Shown: one piece after another, positions 18,336-46,532 of the stretch
How the letters are laid out: each line of letters starts with the position of its first letter
Position numbering within the stretch: the stretch's first letter is position 1
DNA from: Amycolatopsis pithecellobii
GTDB lineage: Bacteria; Actinomycetota; Actinomycetes; Mycobacteriales; Pseudonocardiaceae
Assembly: GCF_009707865.1 (NCBI RefSeq)
Contig: NZ_WMBA01000012.1
Span: 62,001 to 126,000 of the forward strand
DNA: 64,000 nt
Reading direction: 5' to 3'
Position numbers and translations under genes: made by a program
Notes under the pieces: generated by a model
Databases searched by the model: none
What the model was told of the DNA's origin: nothing
What the model saw: the letters and a program-made list of their open reading frames with translations, nothing else

Positions 18336-19277
18336 ATGACTGTCACTCTCGACGCCCCGGCCGGTCCCGGCTCGGTGGACGGCACGCCCGGTCTGCCCGA
18401 AGGTTTCGGTGACGTCTTCGCCAGCCGCTGGGTCGACATCGGCGAGCTGCGTCTGCACGCCGTGGTCGGTGGGGACGGGCCGCCGCTGCTGTTGCTGGCG
18501 GGCTGGCCGCAGACGTGGTACGCGTGGCGGCTGCTGATGCCCGAACTGGCGCGTGACTACACGGTCATCGCCCCCGACCCGCGGGGCGTCGGCCTGTCCG
18601 GCAAACCCGCCGGCGGCTACGACATCGGCACCCTCGCCCGGGACATGGTGTCGCTGATGGGGGCGCTGGGCCACGCACGGTTCGCCATGGTCGGCCACGA
18701 CGTGGGGATGTGGACCGGCTACGCACTGGCCGTCGATCACCCCGACCGGGTCGAGCGGCTGGCGCTGGCCGAGGCGGTCATCCCCGGCCTGGCCCCGTCG
18801 CCGCCGATCTTCGGCCCCCAGGATGTGGTGAACCGCTTGTGGCACTTCACTTTCAACCGGCTCGACGAGCTCAACGAACTGCTCGTCGCCGGCCGCGAGG
18901 ACGTGTTCTTCCGGTGGCAGTTCGCGAACAAGGCGGCGAACCCGCTGGCGGAAACGGCGATCCAGCACTATATCGAGTCCATCGCTCGCAGTCCGGAAGC
19001 GCTGCGCGCCTGTTTCGCGTTCTACCGTGCGGTCACCGAAAACATGGCCCAGAACGCGGAACGCGCGGCGACCACGCTGACGTTGCCGGTGCTGACGATC
19101 GCGGGGGAGCGCTCCACCGGTGCGCTGGTGGAGCAGACCATCGCGCCCGTGGCGTCGGATGTGCACAGCATCGTCATCCCGGACTGCGGTCATTTCCCGG
19201 CGGAGGAAGCCCCCGCGGTGACGCTGGCCGCCGTCAGGGAGTTCCTTGCACCGTACCTGCAGGCCCGCGCGAGTTGA
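18336..19277 (+). CDS. Alpha/beta hydrolase, epoxide-hydrolase-like
   Basis: 313 residues. The oxyanion-hole region LLLLAGWPQTWYAWRLLMP is followed by the motif DPRGVGLSGKP and the nucleophile elbow MVGHDVGMWTGY with Asp as nucleophile, as in epoxide hydrolases and haloalkane dehalogenases. A late His (DCGHFPAEEAP) completes the triad. It is preceded by GGAGA at good spacing and shares a likely operon with the upstream MFS gene. Its TGA stop lies inside the first unit of the 22-bp repeat element, so the last codons (arginine, alanine, serine) are written in repeat sequence. Confidence 0.9.
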   Translation: MTVTLDAPAGPGSVDGTPGLPEGFGDVFASRWVDIGELRLHAVVGGDGPPLLLLAGWPQTWYAWRLLMPELARDYTVIAPDPRGVGLSGKPAGGYDIGTLARDMVSLMGALGHARFAMVGHDVGMWTGYALAVDHPDRVERLALAEAVIPGLAPSPPIFGPQDVVNRLWHFTFNRLDELNELLVAGREDVFFRWQFANKAANPLAETAIQHYIESIARSPEALRACFAFYRAVTENMAQNAERAATTLTLPVLTIAGERSTGALVEQTIAPVASDVHSIVIPDCGHFPAEEAPAVTLAAVREFLAPYLQARAS

Positions 19278-19444
19278 GCGTTGCGTGCGCGCGAGTTGAG
19301 CGTTGGGTGCGGGCGAGTTGAGCGTTGCGTGTGGCGGGAACGTGCAACTCGCGGGGCGGGAACGCGCAACTCGCGCGGCAGAAACGTGCAACTCGCGCGG
19401 CGGGAACGTGCAACTCGCGTGGCGGGAACGTGCAACTCGCGCGG
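19269..19444. repeat. 22-bp tandem repeat element, mirror-type (3 direct + 5 inverted units), copy 1
   Basis: Exactly eight 22-bp units. Three direct units start GCGAGTTGAGCGTTG (19269, 19291, 19313). Five opposite units each contain AACGTGCAACTCGC or a close variant (19335, 19357, 19379, 19401, 19423). The cores GCGAGTTG and CAACTCGC are complementary, so the transcript could fold into long hairpins. The element begins within the last codons of the hydrolase and ends about 30 bp before the TetR start. A related element lies at 46379-46532. Confidence 0.9.
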
Positions 19445-19476
19445 CTAGGCTAGACCACGGCAGGAAGGAGAGCGGT

Positions 19477-20073
19477 GTGTCGGGGCGCAAGCAGTTCGAC
19501 GTCGACGAGGCGCTCGACAAGGCGATGCGGCAGTTCTGGGAGCACGGCTTCGCCGAAACGTCGATCGACACCCTCGGCAAGGCGATGGGGCTCGGGCGCG
19601 GGTCCTTGTACGGCACCTTCGGGGACAAGGACGCGCTGTTCCGGCAAGCTCTCGTCCGGTATTCGGCGTCGTACGAGCACCGCTACGATCTGGCGCTGGC
19701 CGAGCACCCGGACGATCCGGTCGCCGCGATCGAGGCCTTCTTCGGGGTGATCCTCGACCGCATCGCCGACCCGGACGTGCCCGGCGGATGTCTCGTCATC
19801 CAGTCCGCGGCGCAGGGCTCGGCGCTTTCGCCCGAAGCGCGCGACGCCGTCCGCGGTGCGCTGACCGCGCAACGGCGTCGCGTCCGCCGGGCACTCGAAC
19901 CGGCGTCGGCGACGGTCGATGCCTCGGTGCTCGACGATCTGGCCCTGCTCGTCACCGGCGTCCAGCAGGCGATCGTGGTGCAGAGCCGTTCCGCCGCGTC
20001 ACCGGAGGAACTGCGTTCCCTCGCCAGGACCGCCGTCGACGCCGTCGCGACGGCGCTGGACAAGGCACACTGA
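19477..20073 (+). CDS. TetR-family transcriptional regulator
   Basis: 198 residues. The N-terminal HTH is clear: ALDKAMRQFWEHGFAETSID, then LGKAMGLGRGSLYGTFGDKD. The C-terminal ligand domain fits the TetR_C subgroup containing LVIQSAAQG. The GTG at 19477 is seven bases after AAGGAG; longer in-frame forms would translate the repeat element. It probably represses the upstream MFS-hydrolase pair through the GAC-N6-GTC sites at 17082-17122; that link is inference. Confidence 0.9.
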   Translation: MSGRKQFDVDEALDKAMRQFWEHGFAETSIDTLGKAMGLGRGSLYGTFGDKDALFRQALVRYSASYEHRYDLALAEHPDDPVAAIEAFFGVILDRIADPDVPGGCLVIQSAAQGSALSPEARDAVRGALTAQRRRVRRALEPASATVDASVLDDLALLVTGVQQAIVVQSRSAASPEELRSLARTAVDAVATALDKAH

Positions 20074-20076
20074 GGC

Positions 20077-20619
20077 TCAGTACCCCGGCGCGTAGAAACG
20101 GTATTCCGCGGAATAGGGCACGGCATCCAGTGCGCCGTCGGTGCAGGCGCCGGCCGGCGCGACACCGCCCACGGTGTCCAGCCGCTGAACGTAGTCGACG
20201 GAACCGAAGACGCCGGCCCCACGGTTGCCCGTCGACTTCAGGAGCAGCTGCGGCACCGCACCCGGCGTGGGCACGCTCGCCACGGTGGTGCCGGTGACGG
20301 CACTGCCGTCCGCCGTGGCGATCCACTTCGGGCCCGCCGTGTGCAGCACCTGCGTGCTGGTGGCGTCGAGCACCGCGGCGGGCTCCAGCAGTGCCCACGC
20401 CTGGTTCGTGCAGCTGTACACCTGGCTGCCCTCATCGACATGCGCGGTGAGGACGAGCCGGTGCCCGTCCGGGACACGAAGTTCGCCCGGTACCGCGACG
20501 GCCCCGATCCGCGTGTTCGCGGCCGATGCCGGAGCGGTTGCCGGGCTGCCCCCGGGCAAGCCGGGTAGCGCCAAGGCCCCGACGCCGAGCAGGGCGACGA
20601 CGGGCAGGACGAACTTCAT
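20077..20619 (-). CDS. Secreted DUF3455 protein
   Basis: 180 residues with a clear signal sequence (MKFVLPVVALLGVGALALPG). The mature part has the DUF3455 pattern: a strand VPDGHRLVLTAHVDEGSQVYSC, the block AGPKWIATADGSAVTG, then SVDYVQRLDTVGG and a final PYSAEYRFYAPGY. Two or three cysteines could form disulfides. The family is widespread in actinomycetes and fungi with unknown function. ATG at 20619 follows GGGGGAA. It converges with the TetR gene with 3 bp between. Confidence 0.85.
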   Translation of the reverse strand: MKFVLPVVALLGVGALALPGLPGGSPATAPASAANTRIGAVAVPGELRVPDGHRLVLTAHVDEGSQVYSCTNQAWALLEPAAVLDATSTQVLHTAGPKWIATADGSAVTGTTVASVPTPGAVPQLLLKSTGNRGAGVFGSVDYVQRLDTVGGVAPAGACTDGALDAVPYSAEYRFYAPGY

Positions 20620-20834
20620 GCGATTCCCCCAATGGAATAGTGACCCTCGTGTGCGCCCGTTCCTGGACGCACTGACGAGTCTCCTGATGGTGGCCGGTGC
20701 GGTCAAATTACCTGATGTGGCAAGAAATCGACGCGCCCGGCCATCAACAGCACTTCATCGTCGGTCCATTGTGGATAATCATCGGGCACGGAGTGTGGTA
20801 ATGGACAACAAATCCGTCCCGTTCGGGTCGGCGG
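20620..20834. other. Intergenic region without a recognised gene
   Basis: 215 bp between the tautomerase and the DUF3455 start. It is relatively AT-rich and contains a near-copy of the dispersed palindrome, GTCCA-TTG-TGGAT (20764-20776). It presumably holds the DUF3455 promoter; no clear -10/-35 pair was assigned. Confidence 0.5.
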
Positions 20835-21041
20835 TTACTTCCCCTGCAACTTGGCAAGGGTGAGCACGGTGTCCGCGATACCCCAGCCGCCGTCGGCGAC
20901 CTCTTCGACGAGGACCATCGTGTTGGCCCGCGCCTGGTCGCCGTAGATCTCGGCGTACAGGTCGGTCGTGCGGTGGATGATGAGCTCCTTCTGCTCGGCG
21001 GACAGCGTACCGGCGGGCACCTTGTAGTTCGCGAACGGCAT
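20835..21041 (-). CDS. 4-oxalocrotonate tautomerase-family enzyme
   Basis: 68 residues. The protein starts Met-Pro (MPFANYKVPAGTLSAEQKE), so Pro would become the N-terminal catalytic base after Met removal, as in the tautomerase superfamily. The length fits a 4-OT-type subunit that assembles as a multimer. It lies 32 bp after two SDR genes on the same strand, so the three probably form an operon for reduction/isomerisation of small carbonyl compounds. Substrate unknown. Confidence 0.87.
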   Translation of the reverse strand: MPFANYKVPAGTLSAEQKELIIHRTTDLYAEIYGDQARANTMVLVEEVADGGWGIADTVLTLAKLQGK

Positions 21042-21073
21042 GATCTTCTCCTTCTTCTCTCTTCTGGTTGCGG

Positions 21074-21976
21074 TCAGCGGGTGGCGTTGGCGGGCAGCAG
21101 TTCGCTGATCCCGATGCGGTGGTAGAACTCGGCCCGGATGCGGTCGTTGACGGTCGACACGACGTCGCTGCCATCACGGCTGGGGTCGATATGGGTGCGG
21201 AACGGCCGTTGCCCGGCCGGCAGTTCGATCACTCGCGCGATCTCGTCGGCGACCTCGTCCGCGTCATGGCCCTCCGGGAAGATGTCGGTGAGCCGTTGGG
21301 CCATCCCGGCACGCAGCTTCCCGTAGTGCGCGTCGTACGCGTCGGCCCGTGCCTCGTCCGCCGGGGTGCCGGCATGCGCGAAATGGTTGGTACCACTGGG
21401 ATACGCGCCGGGAACGACGATCACCGTGTCGATACCGAACTTGAGCACTTCGGCCGCGTAGCTCTCGGCGAGCGCGTCCATTCCCGCCTTGGCGGCGAAG
21501 TAGGGCGCGAGGAACGGCGGGTGGCCGCCGCGGGTGCTGGAGCTGCCGACCCACACCAGCAGGCCGTTTCCCTGCTCCCGCAGGACGGGCAGCGCCGCCC
21601 GGTTCACCCGTTGCGTGCTGAGCACATTGACGTCGTAGAGCTCCGCCAGCTGCTCGGGGGTGAACGCCTCGGTGGGGCCCAGCACCATGTGCCCGGCGTT
21701 GTGTACCACCACATCCAGGCGGCCCTGCTCGTCGACGATCCGGGCGATCGCGGCATCCACCGACGCCTGGTCCTGCACGTCCATTTCGATCCCGCGCGCG
21801 TCGATCCCTTCGGCCGCCGACAGTTCGGCCAGTTCCTTGACCCGCGGTGCGTTGCGGTCACCGGTCGCGCGCATCCCCGCGTACACCGTGTGCCCGGCCC
21901 GCGCCAGGGTGCGGGCGGTGAGGTTGCCGAATCCCGAGGACGCCCCGGTGATCACGATGATTTGCTTGTCACTCAT
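21074..21976 (-). CDS. Short-chain dehydrogenase/reductase
   Basis: 300 residues. Rossmann motif TGASSGFGNLTARTLA, NAD(P) motif VVHNAGHMVLGP, catalytic Ser in WVGSSSTRGG and Tyr-x-x-x-Lys as YFAAKAGMD. The C-terminal extension ending FYHRIGISELLPANATR is typical of classical SDRs acting on larger carbonyls. ATG at 21976. Second gene of the SDR-SDR-tautomerase operon. Confidence 0.9.
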   Translation of the reverse strand: MSDKQIIVITGASSGFGNLTARTLARAGHTVYAGMRATGDRNAPRVKELAELSAAEGIDARGIEMDVQDQASVDAAIARIVDEQGRLDVVVHNAGHMVLGPTEAFTPEQLAELYDVNVLSTQRVNRAALPVLREQGNGLLVWVGSSSTRGGHPPFLAPYFAAKAGMDALAESYAAEVLKFGIDTVIVVPGAYPSGTNHFAHAGTPADEARADAYDAHYGKLRAGMAQRLTDIFPEGHDADEVADEIARVIELPAGQRPFRTHIDPSRDGSDVVSTVNDRIRAEFYHRIGISELLPANATR

Positions 21977-21989
21977 GGAGAATCTCCGC

Positions 21990-22730
21990 TCAGATGATTC
22001 CGCCGTTGGCACGGATGAGCTGGCCGTTGACCCAGCGGCCCTGCGGTCCGGCGAGGAACGCGACGACGCCGGCGATGTCCTCCGGCGTGCCGAGCCGCTC
22101 CAGCGGCGGCTGAGCGGCGAGCCGGTCGATCGTGTCCTGGTCCTTGCCCTCGAAGAACAGGTCGGTCGCGGTGGGGCCGGGGGCTACGGAGTTGACGGTG
22201 ATGTTCCGCCCGCGCAGTTCCCGCGCGAGGATCAGGGTAAGTGCCTCCACGGCCCCCTTTGTCGCGGCGTATCCGCCGTAGCGCGGGAAGGACAGGGCGG
22301 TCACCGAGGACGACAGGGTGATCACGGCGCCCCCGTCACGCAGCCGGCGCGCGGCTTGCTGCGCCACGACGAACGTGCCACGGATGTTGGTGCGGACCAG
22401 CTCGTCGAATACCGCCAGGTCGAAGTCGGCGACGGTCGCGAGCGGCATCGTGCCCGCGCTGTGCGCCACCACATCGACCCCGCCGAACGTGGTCTCGGCC
22501 GCGTCGAACAGCGCGGTCACCGCCTGCTCGTCGCCGACGTCGGCTTGTGCGGACATCGCCTGCCCGCCCGCTGTCTCGATGTCGCCGACGACCTCGTCCG
22601 CGAGATCCTTGCGCCCCGCGTAGCCGACGACGACGGCGAAACCGTCGGCCGCCAGCCGGCTCGCGATCGAACGGCCGATTCCGCGGGAGCCGCCGGTGAC
22701 GATCGCGACCCGGGTGGTGGACTCAGTCAT
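21990..22730 (-). CDS. Short-chain dehydrogenase (3-oxoacyl-ACP-reductase-like)
   Basis: 246 residues. TGGSRGIGRSIASRLA is the cofactor site, HSAGTMP the NAG variant, SSSVTALSFPRYGGYAATK holds catalytic Ser/Tyr/Lys, and the tail VNGQLIRANGGI is family-typical. Such SDRs reduce or oxidise small keto/hydroxy substrates. It is the first gene of the operon, divergent from the XRE-type regulator at 22863 across 132 bp, so that regulator probably controls it. Confidence 0.9.
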   Translation of the reverse strand: MTESTTRVAIVTGGSRGIGRSIASRLAADGFAVVVGYAGRKDLADEVVGDIETAGGQAMSAQADVGDEQAVTALFDAAETTFGGVDVVAHSAGTMPLATVADFDLAVFDELVRTNIRGTFVVAQQAARRLRDGGAVITLSSSVTALSFPRYGGYAATKGAVEALTLILARELRGRNITVNSVAPGPTATDLFFEGKDQDTIDRLAAQPPLERLGTPEDIAGVVAFLAGPQGRWVNGQLIRANGGII

Positions 22731-22862
22731 TGTGGACTCCTTCGCTCTGGTTCCTGTCGGACATCACCGACTCTGCCCAGCGCCGCGACGGGGTACCAGG
22801 TGGCGTTTACCCGGGGGTTGCCGACCCCTGGCTCAGCGCGGCGAGGAGTGCACACTGGTGGG

Positions 22863-23711
22863 GTGAACCTCGGTGAACTGGGCCTGTTTCTCAAGTCGCG
22901 CCGCGACCGGATCCGGCCGCCGGACGTCGGTCTGCCCACCGGTCCCCGGCGCCGGGTGCCGGGCCTGCGCCGCGACGAAGTGGCTCAACAGGCCGGAATC
23001 TCCGTCGACTACTACATCGAGCTGGAACGGGGAAGCGGCGCGCAACCGTCCGAGCAGGTGCTCGCCTCGCTCGCCCGCGCGCTGCGCCTGACCCTGGACG
23101 AACGCGATCACATCTACCACCTGGCGGGACGTCCCGTGCCGCCCAGCGGTGGTGCCGCCGCGCATGTCCACCCCGGGATGCTCGACCTGCTCGGCCGGTT
23201 ACCGGGCACACCGGCGCAGGTCATCACCGATCTGCACGTCACGCTGGTGCAGAACGATCTCGCCGTCGCCCTGCTCGGCCCGGCGCCTGCCACGCGGGGA
23301 ATCGAGGCCAGCCTGGTCTACCGGTGGTTCACCGACCCGGCGGCTCGCACGATCTACCCGGCCGACGATCACGAACAGCATTCCCGGACGTTCGTGGCGG
23401 ACCTGCGTGCCGCTGCCGCGCGGCGCGGCGGCGATCAGGAAGTCACCGCGCTCATCACCGAGCTGCTGCGGCGGAGCCAGGAATTCGGTGAGCTGTGGGA
23501 AAAACAGGACGTCGCCGTCCGCCGCAACGATCGCAAGCGCATCGTGCACCCCAGCCTCGGTGTCATCGACGTCAACTGCCTCAACCTGGTGAGCGAAGAC
23601 GGCACGCAACGGCTGCTGTGGTTCACCCCGGCCATCGGCACCGAATCCGTGGACCAGCTGGAACTGCTGGCCGTCGTGGGCACCCAGGACCTCACGCCCG
23701 ACCGCCGCTGA
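22863..23711 (+). CDS. XRE-family regulator with MmyB-like ligand domain
   Basis: 282 residues. The N-terminal HTH (about 1-85) has the actinomycete pattern LGLFLKSRRDRIRPPDVGLP, RRVPGLRRDEVAQQAGIS, then YYIELERGSGAQPSEQVL. The remainder is an MmyB-like PAS-fold domain (SLVYRWFTDPAARTIYP) thought to bind a fatty acid or other small ligand. Genes of this type commonly sit divergent from an SDR, as here. The GTG start has no close Shine-Dalgarno sequence; one six codons upstream is possible. Confidence 0.9.
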   Translation: MNLGELGLFLKSRRDRIRPPDVGLPTGPRRRVPGLRRDEVAQQAGISVDYYIELERGSGAQPSEQVLASLARALRLTLDERDHIYHLAGRPVPPSGGAAAHVHPGMLDLLGRLPGTPAQVITDLHVTLVQNDLAVALLGPAPATRGIEASLVYRWFTDPAARTIYPADDHEQHSRTFVADLRAAAARRGGDQEVTALITELLRRSQEFGELWEKQDVAVRRNDRKRIVHPSLGVIDVNCLNLVSEDGTQRLLWFTPAIGTESVDQLELLAVVGTQDLTPDRR

Positions 23712-23714
23712 CGG

Positions 23715-24356
23715 TCAGCCCTCGGCCACGGACTCCGCCAGTTCCCGGTCCAGCGCGACCCGCACGAGGGCGGCGGCCAGGAGTGCCTCGTCGTCAGTGT
23801 GCCGGGCGAGCTGCGCCGGGTCCGCCGGCAGCCCGATCCGTTTCGCGCCGTCGAGGGCCTTCTTGTCCAGGTACGGCCGCAGCTCCGGCCACACCGCCTG
23901 CGCCTCCCGGCAGAAGATGTCCGCACCGACCGGGCCGACCCGGGCGAACTTCCGCAGCCGCCGCCGGATTCCCTCGGTGCCACCGTCACCGGCCTCGCGC
24001 AGTTTCCGCAGATCGCCGGAATAGTCCCGCAGCAGCGTTTCCGCGCTGTCCCCCAACGCCGTGGCGGTCTGCTCGTCGTAGCGCAAGTAGTGCGCCCGGC
24101 CCAGCGCGTCCACCCGATCCTGCCACCGGGAATCCGCCATCGCCCGCGGCGTCGTCAGCTTGGCCGCGGCGAGTTCCTTCGCCGCGGCCACCGCGATCCC
24201 GGCATTGATCCGGGTGGACAGCAGCGTCGCCAGTACCAGCAGCCGGTACAGCGGCGAAGGCTTGTCGGCGAGCTTGATGCCGGCCTCGTCCGCGTACGTC
24301 CGGCCCGCTTTGTCCAGCAGGCGCCGCACGATCACAGCCTGGTCAGACACGGGCAC
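23715..24356 (-). CDS. Endonuclease III-like HhH-GPD family protein
   Basis: 213 residues. The helix-hairpin-helix region reads RRLRKFARVGPVGADIF, followed by the C-terminal helix motif WPELRPYLDKKALDGAK. N-terminal helices (SPLYRLLVLATLLSTRINAG) fit the EndoIII fold. The usual catalytic Lys of the hairpin and the C-terminal Fe-S cysteine quartet are not visible, so it may be a divergent, possibly non-glycosylase member. The GTG start overlaps the preceding gene; a second GTG two codons on is possible. Confidence 0.75.
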   Translation of the reverse strand: MPVSDQAVIVRRLLDKAGRTYADEAGIKLADKPSPLYRLLVLATLLSTRINAGIAVAAAKELAAAKLTTPRAMADSRWQDRVDALGRAHYLRYDEQTATALGDSAETLLRDYSGDLRKLREAGDGGTEGIRRRLRKFARVGPVGADIFCREAQAVWPELRPYLDKKALDGAKRIGLPADPAQLARHTDDEALLAAALVRVALDRELAESVAEG

Positions 24357-24678
24357 CCGACGGTTGCAGCGCGCGGCGCACCAGGTCGGAGATCTCGGTC
24401 GGCTCCGGGTGCACGAGCTCGGGCCAGCTCGCCAGGACCCGGTGCTCCTCCATCCGCTCCGGCTCCAGCGCGAGCGCCCAGCCGTTGTTGCTGTCCCACA
24501 CCAACATCAACAGCCGGCCGGGATGCCTCGGCGAGGTGTCGGCCAGCGCGATGTAGGCCCACGACGGGGTGCCGTACTCGGTCAGTGACGCGGCGGGTTC
24601 CACGCCCAGCGCGACAGCGACGGATTCGACATAGTGCCGCAGTTGGGGGTGCGACCGGAAGGTCGAGGCGGTTTTCAC
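24343..24678 (-). CDS. Small conserved actinomycete protein (DUF6292-like)
   Basis: 111 residues. It opens with HPQLRHYVESVAVALGVEPA, continues WAYIALADTSPRHPGRLLML, then VWDSNNGWALALEPERMEEH. This pattern is familiar from small Pseudonocardiaceae proteins that I associate with DUF6292; the family number is from memory. No catalytic residues were recognised. It overlaps the EndoIII-like gene by 14 bp and is probably co-transcribed. Confidence 0.7.
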   Translation of the reverse strand: MKTASTFRSHPQLRHYVESVAVALGVEPAASLTEYGTPSWAYIALADTSPRHPGRLLMLVWDSNNGWALALEPERMEEHRVLASWPELVHPEPTEISDLVRRALQPSGARV

Positions 24679-24739
24679 GGATGCTCCTCACCGGCGAGCT
24701 GTGTGCTGCCACTGGGAGTTTTCCCACTGTCAGGTGGTT

Positions 24740-25783: not shown

Positions 25784-25935
25784 CAGGCAACTCTAATGCG
25801 GCTTGCCGTGCCAGTGGGTTGTCGACCTGCTTTTTGCCTGCCAGGTGGGAGTCGTTACTGTCTTGCACGTACTCAGGTTGAGCAACCAGCCTGCCGCCCC
25901 GGCAAGCGACTCCCGTGGTCGCATTGGAGGGCTTG

Positions 25936-26316: not shown

Positions 26317-26322
26317 CGCAGT

Positions 26323-26347
26323 GTTTCCCCGCGAGCGATCCGGGTAG
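26323..26347 (+). promoter_or_regulatory. Sigma-B-type promoter before the SAP-like gene
   Basis: GTTT, a 15-base spacer and GGGTAG lie about 36 bp before the ATG at 26383. Motif and spacing are identical to the gas-vesicle promoter at 16793-16817. The start of the motif falls just downstream of the STAS gene stop. Confidence 0.6.
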
Positions 26348-26382
26348 TCAACGGATCGGTTGTTCGCGGAAGGGAGGTCATC

Positions 26383-26715: not shown

Positions 26716-26726
26716 GCCCCAGCCGG

Positions 26727-26758: not shown

Positions 26759-26759
26759 T

Positions 26760-37851: not shown

Positions 37852-40800
37852 TTGTTGCGACCACTTCTCAAAGCCTCGCTTTCCGCGGCGGTGGTGGTCT
37901 CGACCGCCGTCGCCGCCACCGTGCTGCCCGCCTCCCCGGTCGTGGCCGCCGCCTCCTGCCCGTGGGTCACCTCGACCGCGCCGATCGACCAGCGCGTCGA
38001 TCAGTTGCTCGCGCAGATGACCCTCGACGAGAAGCTGCAGGAGCTGCACGGCGACAACAGCCACAGCTACTCCGGCACCGTCCCGGCCCAGCCGCGGCTG
38101 TGCATCCCGGCACTGACGCTCAACGACGGTCCCGGCGGCGTCGGGCTCGGCATGAGCGGCATCACCCAGCTGCCGTCACCGGTGTCCCTCGCTTCCACCT
38201 TCGACAAGCCGCTCGGCAAGCAGTACGGCCAGGTCATCGGAAGTGAGGAATGGGCGAAGGGCGCCGCGGTGGCGCTCGGTCCGACGGTGAACATCGTGCG
38301 GGATCCGCGCTGGGGCCGTGCGTTCGAAAGTTACGGCGAGGACCCGTATCTGGCCGGGCAGATCGGCGTGGCCGACGTGCAGGGCATCCAGAGCACCGGT
38401 GAGCTGGCGCAGGTCAAGCACTGGGCGCTCTACAACCAGGAGACCAACCGCGGCAACTCCACCGACGACGTGATCATCGATTCGCGGACCGAGCAGGAGA
38501 TCTACCTGTCGCAGTTCAAGGCGATCGTGGAGCAGGCCCAGCCCGCATCGCTCATGTGCTCGTACGCCTTCATCAACGGCCAGGCCGCCTGCCAGGACCC
38601 GTACATCATGAACCAGGTGCTGCGCGAGCAGTGGCACTATCCGGGGTTCGTCACGACCGACTGGGGTGGCGCGAAATCCACCCTCGGCTCGGTCGAGGCC
38701 GGGCTGAACATGGAGATGCCCGACGATGCCCGCTACGGCGCCGCGCTCAAGCAGGCCGTCGAATCCGGACAGGTGCCGCTCGGCACGATCGATTCCCTGC
38801 TGCGGCCGACGCTGACCCAGATGTTCCGGTTCAACCTGTTCACGAAGACGCCGGCCGGCACCCCGGACGCGGTCGTCACCACACCGGCGAACCAGGCGGT
38901 CGGCTCGCAGGTGGCCAAGGACGGCACCGTGCTGCTGAAGAACGCCGACGGCATCCTGCCGTTGTCGCCGGACAAGAAATCCTCGATCGCGGTCATCGGG
39001 GACGCCGCCGGTGCCAACGCGATGACCAGTGGCGGCGGCTCGGCCGCGGTGCGCGCCGACCAGATCGTGACGCCGTACCAAGGGATTTCCGCCCGCGCGG
39101 GCAAGGACGTCACGGTCAACTACGCGCAGGGCAACAGCAGCCTCGGCGGGCTGCCGCTGGTGCCGAAAACGGTGCTCACGCCGAGCAGCGGCACCGGTAA
39201 CGGGCTCACCGGCACCTACTACAACGGCATGACCCTCTCCGGCGCGCCGCTCGCCACCCGCGACACCGACCAGATCGCCTTCGACTGGAAGGGCGGTGCC
39301 CCGGTACCGGGTGTGCCGCGCACCCAGTGGTCCGCCAAGTACACCGGCACCCTGAACCCGCCCACGTCGGGGACCTACACGTTCTCCATCACCAGCGACG
39401 ACGGCAGCCGGTTGTTCGTCGACGGCAAGCAGGTCATCGACAACTGGCACGACCAGGGCGGTGTCACGCAGACCGGGCAGGTCACCCTCACCGCGGGGAA
39501 GCCGGTGTCCGTCGAAGTCGACTACTACCAGGACGGCGGCGGGTCGCTCGTGCAGTTCGGCTGGCAGCCACCGGGCGGGACGGCCAGCCCCGAACAGCAG
39601 GCCGTCGATCTCGCCAGGTCCTCGGACGTGGCGGTCGTTTTCGCCGCGAAGAACGAAGCGGAAGGCAGCGACCTGAGCGACCTCGAGCTGCCGGCCGATG
39701 AGACCTCGCTGATCGAGCACGTCGCCGCGGCCAACCCGAACACGATCGTCGTGCTCAACACCGGCTCGGCCGTGACCATGCCGTGGCTGGACAAGGTGAA
39801 GGGCGTGTTCGAGGCGTGGTATCCGGGCCAAGATTACGGAAACGCCATCGCCGCGCTGTTGTTCGGTGACGTCAACCCGTCGGGCAAGCTACCGGTCACG
39901 TTCCCGAAGAGCCTGGCCGATGTGCCGGCCTCGACCCCGCAGCAATTCCCGGGTGTCGACGGCAAGGTGAACTACTCCGAAGGCCTCAAGGTCGGCTATC
40001 GCTGGTACGACGCGCAGCGCATCGCGCCGCTGTTCCCCTTCGGCTCCGGCCTGTCCTACACCTCGTTCCGCTTCGGCAATCTGCGGGTCGACCCGCCGCA
40101 GACCACGTCGCTGGGCACGGTGCACGCGAGCGTCGACGTCACCAACACCGGCAGCCGCGCCGGCGCCGACGTCGCCCAGCTCTACGTCGGGAACCCGGCC
40201 GAGAGCGGAGAGCCGCCGCATCAGCTCAAAGGGTTCGAGAAGGTGTTCCTCCAGCCGGGCGAAACGAAGCGGGTCACCTTCACCGTTTCGCCGGACTCGC
40301 TGGCCACGTTCGACTCCACCACGCAGGCCTGGCAGGTCGCGAGCGGCACCTACCAGCTGTTCGCCGGCGACTCGTCGGCCAACCTGCCACTGCAGGGCGG
40401 CCTCCGGGTGACGCGCAGCTTCGGCCCGCAAGGCGTCACCGTGCAGGCACCGGACATCGTGACACCGGGCAAGCCGAGCCAGGTCACCGCCACCTTCGTC
40501 AACAGGGCGGACGTCGCGGTCACGGGGGCGACGGTCAGCCCGGCCGTGCCGCCGGGCTGGACGATCACCCCGGCGACGGCCACGGCCCGGCGGGTCGGCG
40601 CACACAGCAGTCAGAGCTTCGCCTTCACGCTCACCCCGCCGGCCACCGCGGCGCCGGGCCACGCGAAGGTCACCGTGAACGGGGTCTTCACCGGGCCCGG
40701 GGTGGGCCGGTCCACGGTCAACCCGGCGAGCCAGAACGTGTCCGTGCCGTACGCCGGTTTCGCCGCGGCCCGCAACAACGTCGGGATCAGCGACAACGCC

Positions 40801-41298
40801 GACCCGGGCGCGGCGGATTTCGACGGCTCCGGCTACAGCTATTCGGCGCAGGAACTGGCGAAGCTCGGCATCACGCCAGGTGGCACCGTGACGGCGGACG
40901 GCGCGACGTTCACCTGGCCGGACGTTCCGGCGGGCCGGCCGGACAACGTCGCCACCGCAGGACAGCTGGTCACCATGACCGGCAGCGGGACGTCGCTGCA
41001 TCTGCTCGGCGCCGGCGCACCGGGCAACCAGAGCGGTGACCTCACCATCCGCTACACCGACGGGACCACGTCGACGGCCACCGTCTCGTTCGCCGACTGG
41101 TGGAGCAACACCCCGCTGCCGGCCGACACGCTGGTGGCCACCGCACAGAACTGGAACCAGCCCCCGGACGGCACCGGGCCGCACAAGGTGAGCCTGTACG
41201 CCACCAAGGTTCCGCTGACTCCTGGCAAGACGATCGCGTACCTGCTGCTGCCGCAACTGCCGGGTCTGCACGTGTTCGCGACCGCGACCACCGGCTGA
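37852..41298 (+). CDS. Secreted GH3 beta-glycosidase with PA14 insert
   Basis: 1148 residues. Signal peptide 1-33. GH3 N-terminal barrel with the nucleophile Asp270 in GFVTTDWGG and upstream motifs RLCIPALTLNDGPGGVG and QVKHWALYNQET. The GH3 C-terminal alpha/beta sandwich is interrupted at about 450-590 by a PA14 carbohydrate-binding domain (GLTGTYYNGMTLSG to GSLVQFGWQPPGG). An Fn3-like domain (VDVTNTGSRAGADVAQLYVG), a NEW3-type domain and a final beta-sandwich follow. Likely activity is beta-glucosidase or beta-xylosidase. TTG start eight bases after AAGGAG. Confidence 0.9.
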   Translation: MLRPLLKASLSAAVVVSTAVAATVLPASPVVAAASCPWVTSTAPIDQRVDQLLAQMTLDEKLQELHGDNSHSYSGTVPAQPRLCIPALTLNDGPGGVGLGMSGITQLPSPVSLASTFDKPLGKQYGQVIGSEEWAKGAAVALGPTVNIVRDPRWGRAFESYGEDPYLAGQIGVADVQGIQSTGELAQVKHWALYNQETNRGNSTDDVIIDSRTEQEIYLSQFKAIVEQAQPASLMCSYAFINGQAACQDPYIMNQVLREQWHYPGFVTTDWGGAKSTLGSVEAGLNMEMPDDARYGAALKQAVESGQVPLGTIDSLLRPTLTQMFRFNLFTKTPAGTPDAVVTTPANQAVGSQVAKDGTVLLKNADGILPLSPDKKSSIAVIGDAAGANAMTSGGGSAAVRADQIVTPYQGISARAGKDVTVNYAQGNSSLGGLPLVPKTVLTPSSGTGNGLTGTYYNGMTLSGAPLATRDTDQIAFDWKGGAPVPGVPRTQWSAKYTGTLNPPTSGTYTFSITSDDGSRLFVDGKQVIDNWHDQGGVTQTGQVTLTAGKPVSVEVDYYQDGGGSLVQFGWQPPGGTASPEQQAVDLARSSDVAVVFAAKNEAEGSDLSDLELPADETSLIEHVAAANPNTIVVLNTGSAVTMPWLDKVKGVFEAWYPGQDYGNAIAALLFGDVNPSGKLPVTFPKSLADVPASTPQQFPGVDGKVNYSEGLKVGYRWYDAQRIAPLFPFGSGLSYTSFRFGNLRVDPPQTTSLGTVHASVDVTNTGSRAGADVAQLYVGNPAESGEPPHQLKGFEKVFLQPGETKRVTFTVSPDSLATFDSTTQAWQVASGTYQLFAGDSSANLPLQGGLRVTRSFGPQGVTVQAPDIVTPGKPSQVTATFVNRADVAVTGATVSPAVPPGWTITPATATARRVGAHSSQSFAFTLTPPATAAPGHAKVTVNGVFTGPGVGRSTVNPASQNVSVPYAGFAAARNNVGISDNADPGAADFDGSGYSYSAQELAKLGITPGGTVTADGATFTWPDVPAGRPDNVATAGQLVTMTGSGTSLHLLGAGAPGNQSGDLTIRYTDGTTSTATVSFADWWSNTPLPADTLVATAQNWNQPPDGTGPHKVSLYATKVPLTPGKTIAYLLLPQLPGLHVFATATTG

Positions 41299-41320
41299 CA
41301 ACCGGACAAAAGACCGGACA

Positions 41321-41335
41321 AGCTCGGCGCGAGCT
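41321..41335 (+). terminator. Short hairpin after the GH3 gene
   Basis: Arms AGCTCG (41321-41326) and CGAGCT (41330-41335) around GCG, followed by GTTCATTTCTTG. A weak intrinsic terminator or attenuator in the 96-bp gap before the GH31 gene. Confidence 0.45.
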
Positions 41336-41394
41336 GTTCATTTCTTGATCGGTGCCGAAGTAGCGTCACCGAGGATTCAGGCGAGGAGGCAAAG

Positions 41395-44300
41395 GTGGCG
41401 ACTCGGGCGAGACGGTTGCGGCGGCGCGGTCTGGTGGCGCTGCTCGCGGTAGCGGGCATGGTGGCCGCCCTGCTGACCGCGGTGGCGTCGGTGGACGCGG
41501 CGGCGGTGCCGCGTCCTCAGGTGGTGACCGCCGGGCAAGCCCGGTTCGAGGTGCTGTCACCGACGCTGATCCGGACCGAATATGCGGGTGACTCGGCGTT
41601 CGTCGACGCCGGCACGCACAACGTGGTCGGTCGTGACAGCTTCGGCCGGACCCCTTACACCACAACGACTCGCGACGGCTGGCTGACGGTCCAGACCAGT
41701 GCCGTCCAGCTGCGCTACAAGCTCGGATCGGGCCCCTTCGGCGACAGCAACCTGACCGTTCAGCTGCGCACCGGCGGGCAGACCGTCAACGCCTCGCCGT
41801 GGGCCGGGCGAGGGATACCGGTGTGCGCGTTCGGCGTGTTGTGCGAAGCCGAGGACCTGGGGCTGACCGGCCCGGGTGTGGCGAGCGATCACCGCGGCTA
41901 CACCGGCGGTGGGTTCGCCGCCGGCTTCATCAACACCGGCGACGCGCTGACGTTCCGCACCGAAGCCCCGGCAGCCGGTGCCTACCAGCTGGATCTGCGC
42001 TATGCCAACGGGTTCGGCGGCGACGGGCAGCACACCACCCGCTCGCTGACCGTGCGGGTGGACGGCGGCGACGCGCACACCATCTCGTTGCCGCCCACGA
42101 CCGACTGGGACAACTGGGCAGTGGCAACGGTGCCGGTCACTTTGGGCGCCGGGCAGCACGAGGTGCGGGTCGAGCATGCGGTCACCGACTCCGGCAACGT
42201 CAACATCGACAGCCTCGCCGTGGTGCAGCAGGGTGCCGCCTTCCCACAGCCCATCCCGCCCGCGCCGGTGCCCTGCGCGTACGGCGCGATCTGCGAGGCC
42301 GAGCTGGGTGCGCAGGCCGGCGGCGCACGGACCGCCGACAACCACGACGGCTACTCCGGCAAGGGTTTCCTCGCCGGCCTGGAGCAGGCGGGCGCATCGG
42401 ACGCGCTGACCGTCACCGGTGTCCCCGCAGCCGGTAAGTACGACCTGCAGGTGCGCTACGCCAACGCGGCCGCCGACCCGGCACCGATCCAGCCGCGCAC
42501 CGTCACGGTCGAGGTGGGCAATGCCGCACCGGCCACCGTGACCCTCGCCCCGACGAGCAGCTGGAACTCGTGGCGCACCATCGCCGTGCCGGTCCAGCTG
42601 GCCGCGGGCACCAACACCGTGACCCTCGGCTGCCCCGACGCGGCGAGCTGCCACCTCAACGTCGACACGTTCGCGGTCACCGCACCGGGGTCGCCGCTGC
42701 TCGCCCCGCACGCGGCGCTCGGTGGCTACCGGCGCGGGCTCGACGGCGTCAACGGCACCGCCGTCACCGTCCCGGGCATCCTGTACCAGGACGGCTGGTC
42801 GCTGCTGGACGACACGGCATCGGCGCTGTACGACCCGCGCACCAAGGCGGTGACCCAGCGGCCCGCGCACGGTGGCAAGCCATACCAGGACGGCTACGTG
42901 TTCGCCTACGGGCAGAACTACAACCAGGCGTTGCAGGAGCTGTCCACGTTGACCGGACCGCCGATGCTGCTACCGCGCTGGGCCTACGGCGTCTGGTACT
43001 CCGAGTACTACGACCGCACCGCGGCGGACTTCCAGCAGAACATCGTGCCCCGCTTCCGGTCCGAGCAGGTGCCGCTGGACGCGCTGGTCGTCGACACCGA
43101 CTTCAAGTCGCCGAACCAGTGGAACGGCTGGGAAATCGACAAGAACAAGTTCCCCGACCCGGCCGCGTTCTTCTCCTGGGCGCACGATCAGGGTCTGCAC
43201 ACGACACTGAACATCCACCCGAGCATCGTGGGTTCCGACCCGCAGTTCGCGGCGGCGCAGGCCACCGCGAAGGGCAAGCTCAAGGCCGGCGGGTGCGGCA
43301 CCGACTGCTACGTGTTCGACTTCGGTGACCCGGACCAGTTGCAGGCCTACCTCCAGCTGCACCGCACGATGGCGCCGCAGGGGGTGGACTTCTGGTGGCT
43401 GGACTGGTGCTGCGACGGTTCGTATTCGAGCCTGTCCGGAGTCACCCCGGACGCCTGGATCAACCAGCAGTACGCCGCCGAGTCGGCCAACGCCATCGAC
43501 CGCGGGTTCGCGTTCTCCCGTGCGTACGGTTCGCTGCAGGCCGGTGGTTACAGCTCACCGAACGCCGTGCCGACCGGGCCGTGGGCGGACAAGCGCACGA
43601 CGTTGCACTTCACCGGTGACGCCATTTCCAACTGGCCGACGCTGGCCTACGAGGTCGGCTACACCCCTGGCGAGTCGGTCGCGACCGGCATGGCGTCGGT
43701 GAGCCACGACATCGGCGGCCACACGATGGGGCTGCAGGAACCGGGGACCGAACCGGGCAGCACCAAGCTGCCGGACGATCTGTACGCGCGCTGGGTGCAG
43801 CTCGGCACGTTCCAGCCGATCGACCGGCTGCACTCCAACCACAGTGACCGGCTGCCCTGGCAGTACGGTCCGGCCGCGGAGGCTTCGGCGAAGAAGTTCC
43901 TGAACCTGCGCGAAGATCTGGTGCCCTACACCTATTCGCTCGCCCAGCAGGCGAGCACCACGGGCCTGCCCATCACGCAGCCGCTGTACCTGCAGTACCC
44001 GGGTGAGCAGGAGGCCTACGCGCAGTCGGGTTCGGAGTACCTGTACGGCCCCGACGTCCTGGTGGCGCCGGCGACCAGCCCGGGTACCACCGCGACCACG
44101 TCGGTGTGGTTCCCGCCGGGCAGCGACTGGACGGACTACTTCACCGGCCAGACCTACCACGGCGGCAGCACGGCGCAGATCACCACGGGCTGGGACACCA
44201 TGCCGGTGTTCCTGCGCGCGGGTGCCGTCCTGCCGACCCGGAGCGAGAACGTCAGCGGGGACGTGAAGAACCCGCTGACCGACGTGACGGTCACCGTCGC

Positions 44301-44631
44301 GGGCGGCCACAACGGCTCGTTCACCCTGTACGAGGACGACGGCCAGTCGGCCCAGCCGAGGAGCACGAGCACCCGGATCAGCTACACCGAGGACGCGCGC
44401 TCCGCGACGGTGTCGATCGATTCGCCGCGGGGCACGTATCCGGGGATGCCCGCGCAGCGCACCTGGACCGTCCGGGTCGCGGGCAAATCGGCACCGGCGG
44501 GCGTGCTCGTCAACGGCCGTCGCGGGGCGGACGGCACCTGGACCTGGGACCCGGCAACGAAAACCGTCACGGTGAAGGCCCCGGCGCAACCCACCGGGCG
44601 CCCGCTCACCGTGCGGTTGCTGGATCGGTAA
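41395..44631 (+). CDS. Secreted GH31 alpha-glycosidase with two CBM35-like inserts
   Basis: 1078 residues. Signal peptide 1-37. The N-terminal beta-domain is followed by two CBM35-like modules (CEAEDLGLTGPGVASDHRG and CEAELGAQAGGARTADNHDG, about residues 150-285 and 297-430). The GH31 barrel carries nucleophile Asp670 in FWWLDWCCDG and the acid/base Asp742 in HFTGDAISNW. The distal beta-domain follows (MPVFLRAGAVLPTR). Substrate could be xyloglucan-type alpha-xyloside or an alpha-glucan. GTG start after GAGGAGG. Probably co-expressed with GH3; the pair would remove alternate alpha- and beta-linked sugars. Confidence 0.9.
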   Translation: MATRARRLRRRGLVALLAVAGMVAALLTAVASVDAAAVPRPQVVTAGQARFEVLSPTLIRTEYAGDSAFVDAGTHNVVGRDSFGRTPYTTTTRDGWLTVQTSAVQLRYKLGSGPFGDSNLTVQLRTGGQTVNASPWAGRGIPVCAFGVLCEAEDLGLTGPGVASDHRGYTGGGFAAGFINTGDALTFRTEAPAAGAYQLDLRYANGFGGDGQHTTRSLTVRVDGGDAHTISLPPTTDWDNWAVATVPVTLGAGQHEVRVEHAVTDSGNVNIDSLAVVQQGAAFPQPIPPAPVPCAYGAICEAELGAQAGGARTADNHDGYSGKGFLAGLEQAGASDALTVTGVPAAGKYDLQVRYANAAADPAPIQPRTVTVEVGNAAPATVTLAPTSSWNSWRTIAVPVQLAAGTNTVTLGCPDAASCHLNVDTFAVTAPGSPLLAPHAALGGYRRGLDGVNGTAVTVPGILYQDGWSLLDDTASALYDPRTKAVTQRPAHGGKPYQDGYVFAYGQNYNQALQELSTLTGPPMLLPRWAYGVWYSEYYDRTAADFQQNIVPRFRSEQVPLDALVVDTDFKSPNQWNGWEIDKNKFPDPAAFFSWAHDQGLHTTLNIHPSIVGSDPQFAAAQATAKGKLKAGGCGTDCYVFDFGDPDQLQAYLQLHRTMAPQGVDFWWLDWCCDGSYSSLSGVTPDAWINQQYAAESANAIDRGFAFSRAYGSLQAGGYSSPNAVPTGPWADKRTTLHFTGDAISNWPTLAYEVGYTPGESVATGMASVSHDIGGHTMGLQEPGTEPGSTKLPDDLYARWVQLGTFQPIDRLHSNHSDRLPWQYGPAAEASAKKFLNLREDLVPYTYSLAQQASTTGLPITQPLYLQYPGEQEAYAQSGSEYLYGPDVLVAPATSPGTTATTSVWFPPGSDWTDYFTGQTYHGGSTAQITTGWDTMPVFLRAGAVLPTRSENVSGDVKNPLTDVTVTVAGGHNGSFTLYEDDGQSAQPRSTSTRISYTEDARSATVSIDSPRGTYPGMPAQRTWTVRVAGKSAPAGVLVNGRRGADGTWTWDPATKTVTVKAPAQPTGRPLTVRLLDR

Positions 44632-44639
44632 CGGGGCAG

Positions 44640-44676
44640 ACGTGAGCCGCCGCGGCGATCCCGCGGCGGCTCACGT
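44640..44676. terminator. Strong bidirectional hairpin terminator
   Basis: Arms ACGTGAGCCGCCGCGG (44640-44655) and CCGCGGCGGCTCACGT (44661-44676) pair perfectly over 16 bp with a 5-nt loop. It separates the convergent GH31 and hydratase genes and includes the stop codon of the latter. Confidence 0.85.
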
Positions 44677-45975
44677 GTCCAGGTATCGCAGGACACCACC
44701 GGTCCAGACGGGGAAACCGGCGGCGAGCGTGGAGGCGATGTTCGCATCGGCAGCCGTGATGACGAGCCCGTCCGCGAGCGCCTGCCGCGCGGCTTTGGCG
44801 ATGGATTCGACATCGCCCGAGGCGTCGAGAAGCGCCTGGGTGAAGGGTCCGGCGCCGCCTCGGCTGACGATCGGGATACCGCCGTCCGCGACGGCATTGT
44901 CGTAAGCCGCGGCGATCGCCGCTTCGTCGGCGTCGGCGTCGGCGTGGATCTCGATGACGGGTGCGTTTTCGGCGAAGAACGCGTCGGCCATGCGCAGTTC
45001 GCCGCGCCGGGGGAACGCCGTGGACGTCGTGCCGGCGGTCGAATCCGACGCTGCTCCCTCGGGACGCGAAGCGCCGGCGGTGACGGCCTTGATGTCGAAG
45101 TAGTTGTGGCGCATGTCCGCCGTCACCGGCGCGGACAGCAGCTCGAGAAATGCTTGTGTCTCAAGGGGAAACGCCTCGTCCACCGGCATCTCGGCGGTGC
45201 GCGCCGACACGTCCAGCACGGCCGGGTAGGTGAGTAGCGGGGTGCCTTCGGTGAGCCGCCGGACCTGCTCGCGCACATCCGCGATGTCCGACCCGGGGAT
45301 GCGGTATCCGGGCTGTTCCCAGCGCTGCCCGAACGGTTCGCGCTGGGCCAGTACCCAGTCGCGGGCGGCGGTCACGACCGCGTCCCTGGTCGGCGCCACG
45401 TCGTCGATGAGCCCGGCCCGCAGCGCCGCCGTGGGCCGGTAGGCGGTGCCCGGACCGACGATGTCGAGCACCGTGGCGGCGACGCCGGCCATGCGCGTCA
45501 CCCGGACCACACCGCCGCCACCGGGCATGATGCCCATCTGCGTTTCGGCCAGCGCCCATACCACGTCCGGCTGCTCGAGGCCGACACGGTAGTGGCAGGC
45601 CAGTGCCAGTTCGAAGCCACCGCCCAGTGCCGATCCGACCAGCGCCGCGGCGACCGGGCGGCCGATCGTCTCCAGCCGCCGCAACTGGTCGCGGAAGCGC
45701 TCCAGCACGTCGTAGGTGCCGGCGGCCTCTTCGGCGGGGATCTCGGCGTGCACGACATCCGGACCGGAGAAGAACGAGCGCTTCGCCGACGTCAGGACCA
45801 CGCCGCGCAGCTCGCCGGGCCGAGCTTCGAGCTCGTCGAGGCAGGCATCCAAGCCGGCGAGATGCCGCGCGTTGGCCATGTTCGAAGTACGCCCGGGATC
45901 GTCCAGCGTGATCGTGACGATCCCGTCGCTGTCCCACGACCACCGCACCGCACCGGACTGTTTGATGTTCGTCAT
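44671..45975 (-). CDS. Shortened FadB-like enoyl-CoA hydratase
   Basis: 434 residues. Residues 1-290 are a crotonase domain resembling the N-terminal half of FadB/FadJ: SAKRSFFSGPDVVHAEIPAE, VGSALGGGFELALACHYRVG (oxyanion Gly), and ALAETQMGIMPGGGGVVRVT (catalytic Glu region). Residues 385-434 (ALADGLVITAADANIASTLA, then GFPVWTGGVLRYLD) match the extreme C-terminus of FadB 3-hydroxyacyl-CoA dehydrogenase. The NAD-binding Rossmann core expected between them is absent; no GxGxxG is visible. The gene may therefore come from an internal deletion while keeping hydratase function. Divergent from an ArsR gene across an operator. Confidence 0.8.
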   Translation of the reverse strand: MTNIKQSGAVRWSWDSDGIVTITLDDPGRTSNMANARHLAGLDACLDELEARPGELRGVVLTSAKRSFFSGPDVVHAEIPAEEAAGTYDVLERFRDQLRRLETIGRPVAAALVGSALGGGFELALACHYRVGLEQPDVVWALAETQMGIMPGGGGVVRVTRMAGVAATVLDIVGPGTAYRPTAALRAGLIDDVAPTRDAVVTAARDWVLAQREPFGQRWEQPGYRIPGSDIADVREQVRRLTEGTPLLTYPAVLDVSARTAEMPVDEAFPLETQAFLELLSAPVTADMRHNYFDIKAVTAGASRPEGAASDSTAGTTSTAFPRRGELRMADAFFAENAPVIEIHADADADEAAIAAAYDNAVADGGIPIVSRGGAGPFTQALLDASGDVESIAKAARQALADGLVITAADANIASTLAAGFPVWTGGVLRYLDT

Positions 45976-45994
45976 ACCGTCAAGCTAGATGATA

Positions 45995-46012
45995 GTTTGA
46001 GAACGGTCAAAC
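45995..46012. promoter_or_regulatory. ArsR operator candidate
   Basis: Perfect inverted repeat GTTTGA-N6-TCAAAC between the divergent hydratase and ArsR genes, 20-40 bp from both starts. It is positioned to repress both. Confidence 0.6.
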
Positions 46013-46036
46013 AGTCCGCGAGAAGCAAGGAGTGGC

Positions 46037-46342
46037 GTGGTTTCCGCCGAACACCCGGACCTGTCGGAGGTCGAGCTGGTCGACATCCTCCGCGCGATCG
46101 CCGACCCCATCCGGTTGCGCATCGTCCAGGTTCTCGCTGACGGCGCGGCGCACTTTAAGAGCGAGGACGAGTGGGGCTGCACCGTGCACAAGTCGACGAT
46201 GAGCCACCACTTCAAAACCCTCGAACAGGCCGGGCTCACGCGGACCATCACCATCGGCCGGCAGCACACCATCCAGCTGCGCCGTGAGGAGCTCGACGCC
46301 CGGTTCCCCGGCCTGATCGACGCACTGGCGCCGCGACACTAG
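46037..46342 (+). CDS. ArsR-family winged-helix regulator
   Basis: 101 residues. HTH: LVDILRAIADPIRLRIVQVL, then CTVHKSTMSHHFKTLEQAGL with recognition helix STMSHHFKTLEQAG, and wing TRTITIGRQHTIQLR. No metal-binding Cys pair typical of metalloid sensors is present, so it probably senses an organic ligand. GTG start after AAGGAG. Likely autorepressor and repressor of the divergent hydratase gene. Confidence 0.9.
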   Translation: MVSAEHPDLSEVELVDILRAIADPIRLRIVQVLADGAAHFKSEDEWGCTVHKSTMSHHFKTLEQAGLTRTITIGRQHTIQLRREELDARFPGLIDALAPRH

Positions 46343-46378
46343 GGGTGTTCAGGAGCGGCTCGCGCCGCGGTGCGGTGC

Positions 46379-46532
46379 GCGAGTTGCGCGTTCCTGGTGC
46401 GCGAGTTGCGCGTTCCCGCTACGCGAGTTGCGCGTTCCCGCCACTCGCAACGCTCAACTCGCGTGCTCGCAACGTTCAACTCGCGCGCACGCAAGGCTCA
46501 ACTCGCGTGCTCGCAACGCTCAACTCGCGCCT
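46379..46532. repeat. 22-bp tandem repeat element, mirror-type (3 + 4 units), copy 2
   Basis: Exactly seven 22-bp units: three reading GCGAGTTGCGCGTTCC (46379, 46401, 46423), then four with the reverse-oriented core CAACTCGCG (46445, 46467, 46489, 46511). Read on the minus strand it is the same design as copy 1: GAGTTGAGCG-type units first, then CGCAACTCGC-type units. On that strand it starts at the TAG stop of the aldo-keto reductase gene. Confidence 0.9.

Follow-up and report, generated by a model that had tools for sequence, protein, structure and literature searches.

Two arrays of inverted repeats in the window

The window analysed here, the whole stretch of 64,000 nt of Amycolatopsis pithecellobii (contig NZ_WMBA01000012.1), carries two copies of an element in which short units are repeated with a 22-bp period, first on one strand and then on the other, next to the ends of genes. 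The genome from which it comes, 7.9 Mb in size, is referred to as G000. Tandem Repeats Finder placed 22-bp arrays at 19266-19331 and 19333-19445 in the region of copy 1, and at 46373-46440 and 46444-46529 in that of copy 2. When the window was searched with GCGAGTTGNNCGTT (the word GCGAGTTGN2CGTT), allowing at most one mismatch, 15 matches were obtained, all within the two arrays; the expectation from shuffled sequences was 0.46, with 3 as the largest number in a shuffle. Copy 1 is composed of three units on the + strand and then five on the - strand, and copy 2 of three and then four. In both copies each step between units on the same strand is 22 bp, and the turn between the arms is 26 bp from start to start. 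The exact period and the unit numbers had been given in a preliminary description of the sequence and were reproduced here. The features at the two sites are as follows.

18336..19277, + strand: alpha/beta hydrolase gene (Abhydrolase_1, E 2.2e-22), stop codon TGA from repeat unit 1
19269..19326, + strand: copy 1 arm 1, three A-type units with core GCGAGTTGAGCGTT at 19269, 19291 and 19313
19327..19338, no strand: copy 1 centre, 12 nt, GCGTGTGGCGGG, separating the arms
19339..19440, - strand: copy 1 arm 2, five B-type units with core GCGAGTTGCRCGTT on the - strand
19477..20073, + strand: TetR-type regulator gene downstream of copy 1 (TetR_N, E 2.5e-12)
46037..46342, + strand: ArsR-like helix-turn-helix gene, 3' end towards copy 2 (HTH_20, E 2.4e-7)
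46379..46436, + strand: copy 2 arm 1, three B-type units with core GCGAGTTGCGCGTT
46437..46448, no strand: copy 2 centre, 12 nt, CCCGCCACTCGC, separating the arms
46449..46528, - strand: copy 2 arm 2, four A-type units, the core of one having a mismatch
46531..47427, - strand: aldo-keto reductase gene, ending 2 bp from copy 2 (Aldo_ket_red, E 6.7e-47)

The arm types are swapped between the copies (A|B in copy 1 and B|A in copy 2), so copy 2 is copy 1 reversed, as had been described. The arms are inverted (reverse-complement) repeats, for which the earlier term 'mirror repeat' is wrong. The contacts with the stop codons of the hydrolase gene (inside unit 1) and of the aldo-keto reductase gene (2 bp away) had been seen correctly; it has to be added that copy 2 adjoins two gene ends, because its flanking genes are convergent. 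No Rfam family matched the window at the gathering score, and a tRNA search of the window gave no match. The window also contains an open reading frame of 2483 codons on the - strand (3155-10606).

Arrays across the genome and the family

A two-unit pattern with up to 3 mismatches gave 386 matches in G000 (195+191), as compared with 11 (10+1) for the reversed-pattern control, and a pattern laid across the array centre, also with up to 3 mismatches, gave 58 centres and none in the control. The general design is k units in one direction, a 12-nt centre and m units in the opposite direction; by hand count, the 12-nt sequence GCGTGCGRCGGG or its reverse is present in about 20 of the 50 listed centres. 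In the 845 kb of sequence fetched from G000, 22 arrays of at least three units were found. Their same-strand steps were 22 bp in 127 of 135 cases and their + to - turns exactly 26 bp in 18 of 19, so that the period and the converging layout of the window copies recur in other copies of the genome; stray single units are involved in the three cases where a - unit is followed by a + unit. Nineteen of the 22 arrays are two-armed and all 19 converge (L050 was counted among them despite its arms being 99 bp apart), and three are one-armed (L051, L054 and L064). Strict unit finding turns some two-armed arrays into apparently one-armed ones (it leaves 7 two-armed arrays in G000 instead of 19), and the number 19 is used here. 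Two unit types were distinguished, A (GCGAGTTGAGCGTTGCGTGCGC) and B (GCGAGTTGCGCGTTCCCGCYGC), which often occupy opposite arms in either order with respect to transcription; arms of the same type are common too. The rule that each element starts with one unit type in gene direction did not hold, and an A-first order was rejected on the mixed arm orders of the ten two-armed arrays lying between tandem genes: A-then-B in 2, B-then-A in 3, the same type in 4 and unclear in 1. In the 275 kb fetched from contig C56 there was one array (one-armed, near 225 kb), and in the fetched parts of contigs C51 and C63 one per 20-25 kb. The array density along G000 seems uneven.

All gene-context counts are based on the predictions of a custom gene caller that uses trained codon-usage statistics, and since many of the tiles were chosen around arrays, these counts are relative and are not genome-wide rates. 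For G000 the context of 21 of the 22 arrays was used, as the one at the start of L049 (tile edge) is without a left neighbour; 11 were between tandem genes, 10 between convergent genes and none between divergent genes, against 170, 40 and 99, respectively, of the gaps of at least 60 bp (Fisher p 3.6e-4). The corresponding numbers for 40 arrays of other genomes were 14, 23 and 3, against 275, 98 and 185 gaps (p 1.7e-4); this set leaves out L159, which overlaps a called gene, and any array for which a neighbour on one side or both was not called. In the other genomes the nearest upstream stop codon was at most 60 bp away in 29 of 37 arrays, with a median of 8 bp. When the two-armed arrays of all genomes with both neighbours called were taken together (n=57), 26 were tandem, 31 convergent and 0 divergent. 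The upstream stop codon is inside a repeat unit in 5 of the 21 G000 arrays (L050, where it rests on a stray unit, was left out), and four of these five genes end in GCGAGTTGA, from which it follows that the unit supplies the stop codon. The one-armed arrays L054 and L064 are also at stop codons, between convergent genes. The arrays favour gene 3' ends, and the suspected link with gene ends is supported by the 0 of 21 G000 arrays between divergent genes.

The same design was visible at examined loci in at least 10 genera of one family, with units of the frame CGAGT-N6-YTC, a period of exactly 21 or 22 bp and a spacer of 7-8 bp; the host family is probably the Pseudonocardiaceae. This is judged from the aldo-keto reductase beside copy 2, which has its nearest named relatives in Amycolatopsis, and from one two-unit, 21-bp match in Amycolatopsis thermalba (locus L202); the 80 named loci contained no three-unit array. 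Three of the 19 genus genomes searched had the G000 unit pair when up to 2 mismatches were allowed. Of 297 family genomes, 28 (from 11 of 46 genera) had a looser unit-pair form, with no hit in any control, and a second such form was present in 15 of 140 (10 of 44 genera; controls 0). The loosest form, in which a spacing of 16-30 bp was allowed, was present in 50 of 140 family genomes (23 of 44 genera); 23 genomes of 14 genera had at least 10 matches and one genome had at least 10 control hits (hand count), and counts of 1-2 mean little because 23 genomes have control hits, 44 in all. In the phylum the 22-bp pattern matched 1 of 296 genomes, G000 itself, with two control hits in others, and in the order 1 of 120, again G000 itself, 103 of the 120 being from other families. 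Since this pattern misses 21-bp arrays (e.g. those of G071 and G138), the restriction to the family is shown for the 22-bp form only. Loose unit pairs numbered 192 in G000, 329 in G014 and none in G011. The largest counts were those of G121, G100, G070 and G058; stretches of 120 kb from G121 and from G070, and of 80 kb from G058, contained no array of three units, so these large counts possibly reflect another kind of element or arrays clustered elsewhere.

With spacings of 16-30 bp allowed, all 167 unit pairs from seven genome sets were exactly 21 or 22 bp apart, with one period per set: 22 bp in G000, G048, G049 and G136, and 21 bp in G014, G138 and the pooled stretches of G061, G093, G121, G070 and G058. 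Hits at 22 bp had guided the choice of tiles in G048, G049 and G136, and the loose pattern that in G138. Contiguous stretches, some of which were already known to contain an array (contigs C51 and C63 of G000; the ppx site of G093), were also scanned without a motif. Of the noncoding spots, 10 of 11 in G000 showed lag 22, and 3 of 3 in G061 and 2 of 4 in G093 showed lag 21; CGWGT words are present in all 15. No lag-21 or lag-22 spot was detected by the scan of G070, G058 and G011, and the single lag-21 spot of G121 was not counted as an array because it is without a CGWGT word and lies between divergent genes. A chance expansion of low-complexity sequence is refuted by the genome-wide matches against the control, the enrichment in the window, the motif-free scan and the strict period.

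The polarity of the arms varies: the 19 two-armed arrays of G000 converge, the four of G256 diverge, and G048 has both forms. In G256 (L166-L168) the arms differ in unit class (CGTACG/TGTCCG/TGCACG versus TCTGCG) within one frame, and from their sequences it appears as if two dialects had been combined in one element. In G013 (L294, 167-303) a distinct 22-bp array was seen, built of CGCCGTGTTCCCGGTTCAGGCC units in which the frame takes a CGTGT form. In G015 (L290, 2554-2986) there is a long one-orientation 21-bp array, in which a higher-order block of several different units seems to have been duplicated.

Origin and possible role of the arrays

G011 is the closest of the five other genus members sampled (ppx protein, 89% amino-acid identity), and neither the unit-pair pattern of the genus nor any of the three looser family-level forms matched in it. 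The corresponding sites of G011 and G000 were compared by eye, and sites with one matching flank or with long inserts were left uninterpreted. In G011 the two genes at L059 share a TGATG overlap, and in G000 they are separated by about 190 extra bp that include the array; compared in this way, the gene junction has received the array by a clean insertion, and no target-site duplication was visible there by eye (one site, against G011). The first array of L057 is insertion-like too, with a lower flank identity (68-71%), and the first array of L066 was added beside a hairpin that G000 retains. The L061 site in G011 (L327, about 1680-2200) has, by eye, four T-tailed terminator hairpins in a row, between which the end of the upstream gene is partly repeated; G000 has an array instead. 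Downstream of ppx, G011 shows a 7-bp hairpin and then a terminator with TTTTTG; in G000 there is an array, and the corresponding downstream tail reads ATTTCA. The 3' side of ppx was read in 30 family genomes, and arrays were found in three of them (G000, G061 and G093); those of G061 and G093, two species of one genus (g44), are at the same place and share mirror-ordered units. The expansion of the element is species-specific.

How genes end in high-GC actinobacteria is poorly settled, and terminators with a U-tract are often missing. We favour, tentatively and at somewhat less than an even chance, the explanation that the units are sites for a sequence-specific DNA-binding protein, which would form a phased cooperative patch at gene ends. 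Each unit would be the DNA site of one such putative protein; since the spacing of the sites corresponds to two helical turns, proteins bound to them would align on one face of the DNA and may form a cooperative patch, and this patch would stop or buffer the transcription leaving the gene, from either side. In favour of it are the strict period of 21 or 22 bp, the position at gene ends, the varying polarity of the arms and the indications, given below, that the unit matters more than the hairpin. It is doubtful whether one may go as far as to regard the arrays as a gene-end boundary made of DNA-bound protein and not of RNA, with species-specific dialects co-evolving with a putative family-specific protein; the same doubt attaches to the dialects themselves, which would keep the frame CGAGT-N6-YTC fixed, change the inner letters and place two dialects in opposed arms. 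Several observations weigh against a protein patch. We found no binding protein, nor is one known; a constant period in a genome is also expected from tandem duplication of one ancestral unit, and the inverted two-armed layout of 19 of the 22 G000 arrays is not needed for such a patch. Three of the 40 arrays outside G000 are between divergent genes, and the one-armed L051 is 417 bp behind its gene, away from the stop codon. Some one-armed arrays of genomes other than G000 fold better than shuffled sequences on one strand (L154, z -4.3; L280, -4.2; L279, -4.0), near-perfect stems occur in some arrays (L061, z about -15; G093 behind ppx), and in 12 arrays of other genera the mirrored units are more alike than the non-mirrored ones (core likeness 0.82 vs 0.70; spacer 0.55 vs 0.53; no significance test on either comparison).

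The last two of these observations argue for an explanation at the RNA level, in which the inverted arms would form a long imperfect stem from either strand that ends transcription or protects the 3' end of the mRNA; in one version it would be a bidirectional terminator without a U-tract. We regard this, in both forms, as rather unlikely. It is in keeping with it that the two window copies give good RNA folds from either strand, with z from -5.8 to -6.7, or from -4.1 to -5.0 when flanks are included, that most G000 arrays are two-armed, that by eye the L061 array stands at the place of the terminator hairpins of G011 and the ppx array at that of a short hairpin, and that the ppx arrays of G093 and G061 form a long stem with mirror-ordered units in which C-to-T differences remain paired as G-U (by eye). 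On the other hand, one-armed arrays are present at the same kind of site, and L054 and L064 fold weakly (z -1.1 to -2.2). In 19 G000 arrays, mirrored and non-mirrored units had core likenesses of 0.60 and 0.61 and a spacer likeness of 0.37 both, and the 8-nt spacers were not complementary. The mirror order was within chance when units were permuted (G000, 5 arrays, p 0.42; other members of the genus, 10 arrays, p 0.79; other genera, 16 arrays, p 0.09); a nested-looking unit order was seen in L071, L072, L093 and the G093 ppx array, and a not nested one in G256 and the A|B arrays of G000. No G-U bias was found on the transcribed strand of 26 tandem-context arrays (90 G-U versus 83 A-C; sign test p 0.68). 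No terminator-like site was found around copy 1, and the loss of canonical terminators beside arrays was not significant, with 0 of 10 convergent gaps with an array against 11 of 50 without (p 0.18), and 2 of 11 tandem gaps against 30 of 220 (p 0.65). The preliminary description had predicted an RNA with a comb of hairpins or one long imperfect stem. RNA pairing as the selected feature was supported neither by the unit likeness in G000, the mirror-order permutation and the G-U test nor by the one-armed arrays; this negative is weakened by the unit likeness in other genera, the G093 and G061 ppx arrays and L061, as a few arrays do pair very well. Since the mirror-order and G-U tests were negative and one-armed arrays lie at gene ends, we rate recognition of the unit above the RNA stem by a modest margin.

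Alternatively, the arrays could be a selfish repeat resembling bacterial interspersed mosaic elements (BIMEs) or miniature inverted-repeat transposable elements (MITEs), spread by an enzyme or by gene-conversion copying and without a host function; it would be tolerated mainly behind genes, copies near promoters having been removed. As a whole, this explanation appears unlikely to us. The mobile repeat of the preliminary description is made plausible by the absence of matches in G011 and by the clean insertion into the TGATG overlap at L059, and a selfish repeat would also agree with the species-specific numbers of loose pairs in G000, G014 and G011, with the GCGTGCGRCGGG centres, which are mostly not base-paired, as copying would leave them, and with the five upstream stop codons inside a unit. 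Against it stand the frame and the period, kept across genera while the other letters drift, a persistence that suggests recognition, together with the ppx arrays at the same gene end in two species, the absence of a visible target-site duplication at L059 and the lack in G000 of a match to RAYT, the transposase associated with repetitive extragenic palindromic (REP) sequences. A landing site for gyrase or a nucleoid protein behind genes, where supercoils would be removed, as proposed for the REPs of E. coli (the gyrase proposal is described in PMC3733652), is highly improbable in our view. The position behind and between converging genes, which is that of REPs, is in its favour, and the patchy presence between related species speaks against a housekeeping role. 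The abundant and patterned element near gene ends, with its strict two-turn period, is a directly testable candidate for gene ending and offers a handle on a possibly new DNA-binding protein. It is also a clear example of a repeat in which the frame is conserved and the letters diverge from species to species.

Comparison with known repeat systems

The iterons of plasmid origins are likewise direct repeats, about 22 bp long, that a DNA-binding protein reads at a spacing of two helical turns. Unlike them, the present element occurs in dozens of chromosomal copies near gene 3' ends and often has an inverted second arm. A phage or plasmid origin found no support: copy 2 had no match in a plasmid collection and the three-unit pattern none in viral contigs (phage records were not searched). 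Like Rho-independent terminators, the element follows a stop codon as an inverted repeat that can serve in both directions; it differs from them in its tandem units with a fixed core, in its one-armed forms and, at copy 1, in having no terminator-like site around it. With arrays of clustered regularly interspaced short palindromic repeats (CRISPR) it shares short repeats at regular spacing, but its 7-8-bp spacers are themselves repeated, the arrays are many and small, and there is an inverted arm. As for MITEs, the outer ends are often complementary (CCC..GGG, by eye), and at the single site compared, L059 against G011, no duplication was seen. No earlier publication on the element was seen among the best literature matches, as far as titles and abstract openings show.

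The element is closest in kind to REP sequences, BIMEs and REPINs (REP doublets forming hairpins). According to PMC3733652, REPs lie mostly between convergent or same-direction genes and behind coding regions, and according to PMC3116915, REP doublets can form ordered tandem clusters. Like these systems (PMC3733652, PMC3116915), the arrays are short interspersed repeats with inverted partners and a species-specific expansion, and they occur outside genes in many copies, for the most part where the neighbouring genes converge or run in the same direction. They differ in their units, which follow one another head to tail strictly every 21 or 22 bp and often form two opposed blocks, and in that one-armed forms occur. 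A single unit has by eye only a weak dyad (GAG..YTC), and the palindrome of a REP is 20-40 bp. Of the GTAG and CGTC tags, looked for by eye in the two window copies, neither was present in copy 1; a spacer of copy 2 contains one CTAC, and a consistent tag was not seen. The RAYT family (Y1_Tnp, PF01797) had no match in G000, on which ground a RAYT/REPIN system was rejected; among the seven array-rich genomes (G000, G048, G049, G214, G256, G136 and G118) only G214 and G118 were positive, and matches were obtained in 4 of all 20 genomes searched. Because G000 has no RAYT match, no consistent tag was seen in the window copies and opposed-arm arrays with a strict 21/22-bp period are not described in the passages of the two papers that were consulted, we do not regard the element as a REP, and consider it a new variant of the interspersed-repeat kind.

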